A stretch of DNA of 41,711 bases from contig JACOTM010000081.1 of assembly GCA_016178305.1 (NCBI GenBank), positions 1 through 41,711 of the forward strand. Reading direction: 5' to 3'. Position 1 is the first letter of the stretch, and each line of letters starts with the position of its first letter. The notes beneath the pieces were generated by a model. That model worked only from the letters and a program-made list of their open reading frames with translations. It had not been told where the DNA came from and made no database searches. Positions 17,049 to 27,157 of this stretch are shown in pieces. This stretch comes from Flavobacteriia bacterium (GTDB lineage: Bacteria > Bacteroidota > Bacteroidia > Flavobacteriales_D > Crocinitomicaceae). Position numbers and translations under genes: made by a program.

Positions 17049-18272
17049 TTAAAATATTATTTTTTCAAAATTTTTCTGAATCAAATATTTCACCGGCAAG
17101 TAAGAAGCAATAATACTCAATATTGTAACTAAACCAATAATTAAAAAAGCATCTAACAAAGTGATATTCATTGGAAACGGTTCGCCTCCTGAATTAGGCA
17201 TTAATAAAAGATGTCCAAAAATTTGCACCGAACAAATGGCATATCCAATCACCAGCCCCCATAAGATTCCTTTCAATGAAATCATTAAGCCTTCATAATA
17301 AAAAATACGAAAAATTAATTTTTTATTAGCTCCATAACTTATCATCGTTTTGATATTGTCCATTTTCTCTATAAACAACATTGTCAACGAAGCGACTAAA
17401 TTAAACGCTGCTAATATGAATATGAAAATTAAAATGAATAATACAATGATTTTTTCAGATTTACTCGTTTTGTAAATCAATTCATTTTTTTCATAATTGG
17501 TTTTAACTTCGAAATCTTTCCCTAAGAAATCCTGTAAACGCTCTTTAACATCATCATTGGATTCATTGGAATTAACTTGTACATATATCGCAGTAATATC
17601 GTTTTGATATTCTAATAATTCTTTTGCTAAATGCAATGGCAAAACAACGATGTCTGAATTTACTTCTCTATTATAATTGATTCGTCCAGCAATTTTAATG
17701 GTTTGAGTCGTGAATGGATTTGAACCTAAGCGCACTTTCGCATTTCTTTTTGGAATGTAAAATAACAGTGATTCATAACCCATTTTTTCAGGGATATATC
17801 CTCCTAAATTATCTAATAATGTTGCCCCGATAATACCAAATTCTTCCCCATTTTCTTTCAACATCGCAATGCCATCAACAATGTGTTTATCCATTTCAGA
17901 CATTGTCAAAAATGTAGAATCAATTCCTATCAAATGTGCATTCACCCATTTTTTTTCATGTTTCAATACGACAACTTCTTCAACAGCTTTTGAAAATCGT
18001 TCTATTCCTTCTATTTTTTCTAATTGCTTAAAATTGATTTGATTTTCATTGAATGTTTTTCCTTTACTAGAGCGAATGGTAATGTCAGAATCAAATTCAG
18101 AATATAATTTCTCAACCATGGATTCTATTCCGTTAAAAGCAGATAATAAAATAACCAAAGCCGCTGTAATTACAGCAATTCCGACAACAGAAATACGTGT
18201 TATTAGATGAATAACATTTTTCTTCTTTTTAGAAGAAAGGTACCTTTTCGCTATGAAATAGGAGACGTTGAT
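17049..18272 (-). CDS. LolC/LolE-type lipoprotein-releasing ABC transporter permease (start codon unusual)
   Basis: The product is an FtsX-like permease: an N-terminal membrane helix (I-S-V-V-G-I-A-V-I-T-A-A-L-V-I-L-L-S), a ~220-residue periplasmic domain, and three C-terminal helices (L-F-I-L-I-F-I-F-I-L-A-A-F-N-L-V-A-S-L, then two more). The family moves lipoproteins out of the inner membrane with the LolD ATPase, which is not in the window. The first conventional start (TTG at 18158) would remove 38 residues that are clearly conserved family sequence, including Y-F-I-A-K-R-Y-L and K-K-K-N-V-I-H-L-I. That frame is open back to a TAA at 18293-18291 but has no ATG, GTG or TTG. I therefore place the start at ATC 18272, where relatives usually have ATG, giving 407 residues, the normal family length. 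rbfA ends 7 bases upstream, so coupling is likely. Confidence 0.85.
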   Translation of the reverse strand: MNVSYFIAKRYLSSKKKKNVIHLITRISVVGIAVITAALVILLSAFNGIESMVEKLYSEFDSDITIRSSKGKTFNENQINFKQLEKIEGIERFSKAVEEVVVLKHEKKWVNAHLIGIDSTFLTMSEMDKHIVDGIAMLKENGEEFGIIGATLLDNLGGYIPEKMGYESLLFYIPKRNAKVRLGSNPFTTQTIKIAGRINYNREVNSDIVVLPLHLAKELLEYQNDITAIYVQVNSNESNDDVKERLQDFLGKDFEVKTNYEKNELIYKTSKSEKIIVLFILIFIFILAAFNLVASLTMLFIEKMDNIKTMISYGANKKLIFRIFYYEGLMISLKGILWGLVIGYAICSVQIFGHLLLMPNSGGEPFPMNITLLDAFLIIGLVTILSIIASYLPVKYLIQKNFEKIIF

Positions 18273-18279
18273 AAAAAAA

Positions 18280-18618
18280 TTATTTCTTTTTTAATAATGC
18301 ATCTATTTGACTAGCATAATCAATCGAATCATCAATGTAAAATAATAATTCAGGTATTTTACGCATATTTTTTAATCGCTTTCCAACTTCCCCTCTTATT
18401 TTTTTAGTGAAAACTTGAATATTTTCAAGTACTTCTTTTTTTTCTGGTCCAGCGAAAATACTGATATAACACTTTGCTAAGGATAAGTCTGAAGTAACAC
18501 GAACAACTGTAACAGAAACCATTGCTCCTAAACATACCTCCCGTGCATTTCTTTGAAAATAAGTAGATAATTCCTCCAAAATCACACCTTCGATTTTATT
18601 TTGTCTTATTGAACTCAT
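18280..18618 (-). CDS. rbfA: Ribosome-binding factor A
   Basis: The 112-residue product fits RbfA, the small KH-fold factor that binds the 30S subunit during late maturation of 16S rRNA and in cold adaptation. Recognisable features are the start S-S-I-R-Q-N-K-I-E-G-V-I-L-E-E-L-S, the V-T-V-V-R-V-T-S-D-L-S-L-A-K-C-Y-I-S-I-F core, and the end R-K-I-P-E-L-L-F-Y-I-D-D-S-I-D-Y-A-S-Q-I-D. It ends 7 bases before the assigned start of the permease gene, a common pairing in Bacteroidota as far as I recall. The ATG at 18618 lies only four bases after a candidate promoter -7 element. Confidence 0.95.
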   Translation of the reverse strand: MSSIRQNKIEGVILEELSTYFQRNAREVCLGAMVSVTVVRVTSDLSLAKCYISIFAGPEKKEVLENIQVFTKKIRGEVGKRLKNMRKIPELLFYIDDSIDYASQIDALLKKK

Positions 18619-18622
18619 ACTA

Positions 18623-18630
18623 CAAAAATA
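18623..18630 (-). promoter_or_regulatory. Candidate -7 promoter element for rbfA, almost touching the start codon
   Basis: Minus strand reads TATTTTTG (TAnnTTTG), followed by only TAGT before the ATG. If used, the transcript would be nearly leaderless. Confidence 0.35.
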
Positions 18631-26105: not shown

Positions 26106-27134
26106 TTAATCTTCAAATAAACCACCTTGTGTAAATCCAAGCGGTTTACCTAAATGTTTAAATGCTTTTTCTGTCGCTTTTCTACCTCTCGAAGTTCGTG
26201 TTAAAAAACCTTCTTGAATTAAAAATGGCTCATAAACTTCTTCCAATGTTCCCGCATTTTCACCGATTGCAGTTGCTATAGTAGATAAACCAACTGGACC
26301 ACCATTGAATTTATGAATAATAGCTCCTAAAATACGATTATCCATTTCATCTAATCCATTTTGATCAACATTCAGTGCTTTTAAACCGTAATTTGTGATG
26401 TCTAATGTAATTGTTCCATCTCCTTTAATTTGGGCAAAATCACGAATTCTTCTCAATAATGCATTTGCTATACGTGGCGTACCACGACTTCTACTCGCGA
26501 TTTGATAAGCAGCTAATTCATCAATTTTAATATTTAACAAACCTGCTGACCTCTCAACTATCGAAGTTAATACCTCAGAATTATAATATTCTAAACGTGA
26601 ATTTATACCAAAACGTGCTCTTAAAGGTGAAGTTAACAAGCCCGATCGAGTGGTAGCTCCAATGAGCGTAAAAGGATTTAAGGTAATTTGAACTGTACGA
26701 GCATTTGCACCAGTATCTAGCAAAATATCGATTACATAATCTTCCATTGCAGAATATAAATATTCCTCGACAACAGGGCTCAAGCGGTGAATCTCATCAA
26801 TAAATAACACATCACCGGTTTGAAGATTGGTCAATAAACCAGCTAAATCGCCAGCTTTATCTAAAACGGGGCCACTTGTAACTTTAAAACCAACACCCAA
26901 TTCATTCGCTATAATATTTGCCAAAGTAGTTTTACCCAATCCTGGAGGTCCGTGCAAGAGTACATGATCAAGTGGTTCATCTCTTAACTTTGCAGCTTTT
27001 ACAAAAATATCCAGATTATCAACAACTGATTGCTGACCTGCAAAATCTGATAATAACTTAGGTCTTAATACCTTGTCATAATCATTTTCATTATTAACTT
27101 CTGCCTCTTCTCTATAATCGAATGATTCTTCCAA
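26106..27134 (-). CDS. ruvB: Holliday junction branch migration ATPase RuvB
   Basis: This AAA+ motor drives branch migration with RuvA. It shows [12 protein letters not shown], Walker A G-P-P-G-L-G-K-T, Walker [12 protein letters not shown], sensor [10 protein letters not shown], the arginine finger region P-L-R-A-R-F-G-I, and the C-terminal winged helix ending R-G-R-K-A-T-E-K-A. No in-frame ATG precedes the conserved core. The frame is open to a stop at 27191-27189, with TTG codons at 27152 and 27134. The first TTG lies inside a good -7 promoter element (27150-27157), so I chose 27134. This gives 342 residues, close to the usual ~336-340. The choice between the two is uncertain. Confidence 0.93.
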
Positions 27135-27149
27135 TTGAAATATTTTTAT

Positions 27150-27157
27150 CAAAAATA
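27150..27157 (-). promoter_or_regulatory. Candidate -7 promoter element for ruvB-queG
   Basis: Minus strand reads TATTTTTG (TAnnTTTG) just after the terminator hairpin of the cox operon. It includes the TTG at 27152-27150 that would otherwise be the first start codon, which argues for translation starting further downstream. Confidence 0.4.

Follow-up and report, generated by a model that had tools for sequence, protein, structure and literature searches.

A permease frame without a canonical start codon

Where does translation begin in a gene whose conserved N-terminal coding sequence contains no ATG, GTG or TTG? This question is raised by a permease gene in the window, i.e. the whole stretch of 41,711 nucleotides that was analysed. 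The open frame runs on the minus strand from 18293 to 17049 and is closed on its 5' side by an in-frame TAA (18291-18293), after which it reads AAA AGA AAT AAT TTT TTT ATC AAC GTC TCC TAT TTC ATA GCG. Its first ATG, GTG or TTG is the TTG at 18158, and no canonical start fits the conserved N-terminus of the permease. The initial annotation had described the frame as open, conserved and free of canonical start codons upstream of TTG 18158, with an ATC at 18272-18270, and this description was confirmed in the sequence. Its count of 45 codons between the TAA and the TTG was one too many: 44 were found, 38 of which lie from the ATC on, and none of these 38 is canonical. The ATC is preceded by seven T and lies exactly 7 bases, all T, beyond the rbfA stop codon TAA (18282-18280). 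Read from the proposed AUC start (18270-18272), the gene (17049-18272, minus strand) would code for a LolC/E/F-like ABC transporter permease of 407 amino acids with MacB_PCD and FtsX domains.

Both PF12704 (MacB-like periplasmic domain) and PF02687 (FtsX C-terminal domain) scored over the Pfam cut-off in this protein. Profile comparison to solved structures gave matches to the lipoprotein-release permeases LolF (7.4e-31), LolE and LolC over nearly its whole length. It differs from these proteins in scoring only 166 bits against the NCBIfam lolCE equivalog, for which the cut-off is 362 bits; therefore the label goes no further than LolC/E/F-like, and the predicted function in lipoprotein release is putative.

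The start column in related permease genes

The comparison drew on 174 rows: orthologs from 94 of the 99 genomes examined, the window's own among them, and 80 named loci, the best 80 of 207 relatives. Of the five genomes that were not used, G003 and G031 had only part of the gene, and G010 and G011 matched other permeases, and those weakly; the fifth was G070. Removal of 24 copies left 150 distinct rows, and 149 after one locus without an N-terminus (L144) had been dropped. The register was set by the conserved Ile-Ala (or Ile-Ser) of the motif F-I-A-K-R-Y-L, and the codon six positions before it was taken as the start column. Loci were assigned to the AUH class if the column read ATT, ATC or ATA and the stretch between the eighth codon before it and the motif was free of canonical codons.

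AUH occupied the start column in 84 of the 149 loci (ATT 41, ATC 40, ATA 3). The other 65 had a canonical codon (TTG 24, GTG 23, ATG 18), which in 55 of them stood exactly at the column (GTG 21, TTG 18, ATG 16). Every locus without a canonical start showed ATT, ATC or ATA at the column and nothing else, and the same class of noncanonical codon is kept over many species. In 53 of the 84 AUH loci the frame is closed by a stop codon just 1-4 codons before AUH, so that little room is left for the start there. Canonical codons 11-19 codons upstream were seen in two AUH loci (L129 and L174), and a third, L126, is truncated by the end of its contig.

With the first six columns of the permease protein left out, a FastTree tree placed 83 of the 84 AUH rows in one clade of 88 and the remaining row (L042) beside it. 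Judged by the names of the relatives (Fluviicola, Taishania, 'Crocinitomicaceae bacterium') the clade corresponds to the Crocinitomicaceae; several of the names given to metagenome-assembled genomes are those of unrelated species. Within the clade the start column held ATT 42 times, ATC 40 times, ATA 4 times, GTG and CCA once each, and ATG never. The GTG row (L173) starts at the column. A canonical codon stands just before it in the row with CCA (L027) and in two with ATH (L024 and L045), and eight codons before it in L164.

At least 24 interchanges between ATT, ATC and ATA were counted over the 84 AUH rows. AUG, which is one substitution away from any of these codons, thus seems to be avoided at the permease start in this clade. 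Third-base G reaches about 7% or more in 59 of 60 four-fold columns of the permease gene (median 18%). The absence of ATG is strong evidence but falls short of a formal proof of selection, because mutation itself favours C/T changes and Val-3, a column close by, is also without third-base G.

Weak starts across the class

In the other families of the same order (38 rows) the permease starts with TTG or GTG in 30 rows, with ATG in 8 and with AUH in none. Among other orders of Bacteroidia, 117 genomes had a match and 40 loci were fetched, of which 5 could not be read by the motif. The remaining 35 gave TTG 19, ATG 10 and GTG 6, with the start at the same position in 32; L249 and L250 were read in the wrong register, and L262 starts three codons earlier. 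The start of rbfA, whose motif was found in 120 of the 149 loci, is ATG in 117 of these 120, and of 269 ORFs sampled from the window's genome 207 have ATG as their first canonical codon. Because TTG and GTG dominate at the permease while rbfA and the sampled ORFs mostly have ATG, the permease gene appears to prefer weak starts throughout the class, and AUH to be the extreme of that trend. Compared with the GUG and UUG starts of other Bacteroidia, gene, preference for a weak start and mostly also position are the same; those codons, however, are canonical, whereas AUH was seen in one family only among the loci read.

Coding character of the N-terminal segment

The protein segment preceding TTG 18158 aligned without gaps to 15 relatives. 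Codons 2-11 were compared over all pairs of the 84 AUH loci. In the permease frame 11,493 differences were synonymous and 9,413 nonsynonymous; in the two other frames the same pairs gave 2,747/19,563 and 1,381/20,257. Since the alignment is gap-free and synonymous differences prevail only in the permease frame, the segment is best read as genuine protein sequence.

The coding-like stretch ahead of the first canonical codon exceeds what chance would give: over 338 kb sampled from this genome, with the window included, 4 of 269 ORFs scored higher, in a scan that is blind to short extensions. On inspection the higher-scoring ORFs looked like frameshifts, fragments or an antisense frame, with one exception (L218). 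Coding-like extensions were noted at L218, L214, L223 and L221. The exception, L218:18774-19728 (minus strand), spans 318 codons and has a cysteine-rich C-terminus, and about 104 codons that look coding precede its first canonical start; it lies near a contig end and is perhaps a frameshift or a further noncanonical start. L223:6305-6716 (plus strand) and L221:16160-17912 (minus strand) are frames without a proper start, by eye presumably a ribosomal protein L25 and a SusC-like receptor, and are likely frameshifts or fragments in the draft assembly. In the window itself the gene at 26106-27152, which we take from its sequence to be RuvB-like, has a TTG start and seems ordinary.

A separate peculiarity was noticed at permease codon 7 (Ile, 18252-18254), which is ATA in 133 of the 149 loci; at 19 other conserved Ile columns ATA accounts for 7-26%. 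ATA is frequent at codon 7 in other orders of the class as well. Among the Ile codons of the genome sample, ATA accounts for 125 of 322 in early positions and for 1,565 of 6,990 further on. The idea that the codon supplies an out-of-frame TAG to stop a frame derived from rbfA was dropped, as the frames disagree. The preference for ATA at codon 7 would be a constraint at the nucleotide level.

The junction with rbfA

The upstream gene (18280-18618, minus strand; ATG start) codes for 30S ribosome-binding factor A, with profile matches to PF02033 (E 5.7e-28) and TIGR00082 (60.5 bits, cut-off 51.15). For the gap counts the upstream ORF was taken as rbfA from its length and place. Its stop codon lies at most 12 bases from AUH in 65 of 82 loci, with an overlap in 6 (e.g. 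ATTAA, TAATC), which makes the coupling to rbfA translation suggested in the initial annotation plausible; in the other 17 the gap exceeds 12 bases and reaches up to 118. The gap between the two genes falls in all three frames (32/30/23 of 85). A short gap or overlap would suit reinitiation by ribosomes that have terminated on rbfA, the frame relation being free. Relatives with a canonical permease start show similar gaps, therefore coupling would not be special to AUH.

The three adenines at -13 to -11 from the AUC (AAA, 18283-18285, minus strand) are a possible initiation element. Bacteroidetes are reported to be without Shine-Dalgarno sequences, and A at -3, -6, -12 and -13 to promote initiation in Flavobacterium johnsoniae (PMC6847099). 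The stretch from -13 to -10 is A-rich in the AUH loci. The frequency of A at -13 to -11 is 0.72-0.87 in the 84 AUH loci, compared with 0.42-0.51 in the 55 canonical-start permease loci and 0.52-0.62 in 210 sampled genes; for -12 and -11 the values are 0.86 and 0.87, 0.42 and 0.51, and 0.54 and 0.62, respectively. With the rbfA stop as reference point the A-rich stretch is no weaker (up to 0.94), and in most loci its adenines belong to the Lys-rich last codons of rbfA. In the 22 AUH loci (not all independent) whose rbfA ends 12 or more bases away, A still amounts to 0.77-0.82 at -13 to -11 (0.77 at -12 and 0.82 at -11). It is these distant-stop loci that suggest an anchoring of the adenines on the start, which is partly confounded with the Lys-rich end of rbfA. 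A was not enriched in the AUH loci at -3 and -6 (0.40 and 0.48, versus 0.49 and 0.48 in sampled genes) and was depleted at -2 and -1 (0.17 and 0.08), so only part of the Flavobacterium adenine pattern is present. RNAalifold found 0 conserved pairs around the start in 30 of the loci, and Rfam gave no match at gathering score within the window.

Before rbfA, a predicted -7 promoter element TATTTTTG (TAHHTTTG; 18623-18630, minus strand) was recognised from the sequence, the relatives and the F. johnsoniae element, with its T at -12 and its G at -5 from the rbfA ATG. It was exact at -12/-13 from the ATG in 75 of 80 AUH loci and in 20 of 23 other loci on the Crocinitomicaceae side, i.e. 95 of 103 loci of that side carry it together with a predicted leaderless rbfA. 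It was exact in 3 of 16 loci of other families, and 208 sampled genes gave 5 matches. The same element occupies -12 to -5 relative to the transcript start in F. johnsoniae, and most transcripts there are reported to be leadered (PMC6847099). Because the spacing from the rbfA ATG equals the F. johnsoniae spacing from the transcript start, the rbfA mRNA is predicted to be leaderless, with its 5' end at or next to the ATG.

infC and IF3 in AUH genomes

IF3 is reported to repress noncanonical starts (PMC5472188), and to discriminate in vitro against AUU paired with the CAU anticodon (PMC10158994). Of 57 infC loci found, 50 were fetched (L177-L206 and L267-L286; L203 is from the window's genome), and 9 of the 50 could not be resolved. 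The infC start is ATG in all 17 resolved AUH genomes (18 examined). In genomes of the same family with a canonical permease start infC was canonical in 7, not canonical in 3 and unresolved in 3, and in other families it had no canonical codon at the expected start in 9 of 12 resolved genomes (17 examined). This apparent exchange of starts between infC and the permease may be a coincidence, because few evolutionary events are involved. Changes in IF3 were considered as a cause of the AUH start and rejected: at an 85% cut only three differences, all conservative, separated the 17 AUH genomes from 13 others.

IF3 releases RbfA from the mature 30S subunit. A tentative and rather improbable extension is that the rbfA-permease operon of the Crocinitomicaceae acts as a double IF3 sensor, with rbfA translated from a leaderless mRNA and the permease from AUH, both disfavoured by IF3. 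If this were true, lipoprotein export would respond to the state of the 30S pool, and this in bacteria whose infC has a canonical start. A leaderless rbfA and a canonical infC permit an IF3-responsive operon but do not show it.

Proposed reading and its alternatives

The permease is probably translated from a selected, very weak non-AUG start (AUC in the window; AUU, AUC or rarely AUA in relatives) at the position used by the relatives sampled over Bacteroidia. Since dozens of species share it, the unusual start itself is almost certainly real. Initiation at AUC, as put forward in the initial annotation, is thus supported by the codon class and position that the relatives share. The sequences show directly the start position, its conservation, the lack of any other start that would fit and that AUG is missing in the clade; a regulatory role is what we infer from them, the odd start being probably a way to keep the permease scarce. 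Initiator fMet-tRNA would pair with only two bases of AUH, and initiation would be weak and subject to proofreading by IF3. Shine-Dalgarno pairing being unused in Bacteroidetes, the upstream adenines may help the start and compensate for its weak codon, as proposed for the extended ribosome-binding site of sigR (PMC5472188). Ribosomes arriving from rbfA, whose stop is mostly a few bases upstream, would aid initiation, and the outcome would be a low ratio of permease to RbfA. AUH would in this way extend the preference of the gene for UUG and GUG seen throughout the class.

The initial annotation had assumed that relatives usually have ATG here, and had offered as alternatives a lone point mutation lowering expression in this genome or a base error. 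ATC is indeed one base from ATG, but none of the three ideas holds, because AUH is common to dozens of related loci: it recurs at 84 distinct loci that come from many independently assembled genomes, and the isolate genome of Taishania pollutisoli CZZ-1 (L139, a copy of L023; ATC at the column) shows it as well. The nearest relatives have AUC or AUU and more distant ones mostly GUG or UUG, and a mutated or misread ATG in the window's genome retains virtually no probability. A shorter permease translated from TTG 18158, with the upstream frame untranslated, is what gene finders limited to ATG, GTG and TTG would pick. It is nevertheless highly improbable: the first canonical codons of the AUH loci lie at unrelated places, 11 to 56 codons (median 28) after AUH, and the TTG of the window on inspection cuts into the first hydrophobic stretch. 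Moreover, the upstream codons evolve as protein and are part of the gene where a canonical start sits at the same place.

Readthrough or frameshifting might also fuse the permease to RbfA, and AUH would then be an internal Ile codon. A classic slippery motif, A AAA AAG, closes the rbfA of the window, and L007 and L008 are examples of loci whose rbfA shares the permease frame. Against such a fusion, no single frame change fits gaps distributed over all three frames, by which it was rejected; in the window, hand reading showed that a slip back at A AAA AAG enters another frame and is soon stopped. The in-frame stops shortly before AUH in 53 of the 84 loci and the alternation of the codon with GTG, TTG and ATG in relatives, not expected of an internal Ile, leave this explanation a very small chance as well. 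An unlikely explanation, though one of more weight, is that AUH is the true start but neutral, near-cognate codons being tolerated (e.g. by a less strict IF3) without selection for low expression. The ATG start of infC in the AUH genomes is in its favour, as IF3 control may differ there. Against a neutral start stand ATG in 0 of 88 rows at the site despite frequent third-base change, the ATG kept by rbfA, the lack of another clear case among the 269 sampled ORFs (in a scan that would miss short extensions), and the few and conservative IF3 differences. Selection for a weak start at AUH is the preferred reading.

Comparison with known systems

As PMC5472188 notes, experiments have characterised very few noncanonical start codons of bacteria. 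In 36 genome groups, 1 of 61,358 ancestral AUG starts and 1 of 5,080 ancestral GUG starts became AUU, as judged from annotated starts (PMC5622118); because such changes are so rare, the persistence of AUH across a family is remarkable. In the open-licence literature no prior report of a conserved AUH start in this permease gene or in Crocinitomicaceae was found among the matches listed. If AUH is the family-wide start of a gene for envelope transport, it would demonstrate that noncanonical starts can persist beyond the genes of translation factors and sigma factors, and where Shine-Dalgarno pairing is not used. In practical terms, gene finders that accept only ATG, GTG and TTG would trim the N-terminus of the permease.

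The closest parallel is infC, the IF3 gene, which starts with ATT in E. coli and ATC in Streptomyces (PMC5472188), and the likeness pointed out in the initial annotation is borne out. Both genes have an AUH start, expected to be read by the initiator tRNA and repressed by IF3 (PMC5472188). The product here, however, is an inner-membrane permease and not IF3, which leaves no autoregulatory loop; the AUH genomes have an infC with ATG, and the phylum is without Shine-Dalgarno pairing. In Streptomyces sigR the start is GTC in 32 of 34 cases and GTT in 2 (PMC5472188), so that there too a noncanonical start is kept across species at a gene other than infC. The sigR start is reported to set the ratio to the operon partner, with a strong upstream element suggested to aid the weak codon (PMC5472188). 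By analogy with infC and sigR, the permease start may be sensitive to IF3. The two systems differ in that sigR uses GTC or GTT, is the first gene of its operon and has been proven experimentally, whereas the permease uses AUH, is the second gene and is known from sequence alone. On that basis the permease start is a conserved noncanonical start of the infC and sigR kind, predicted at a new sort of gene.
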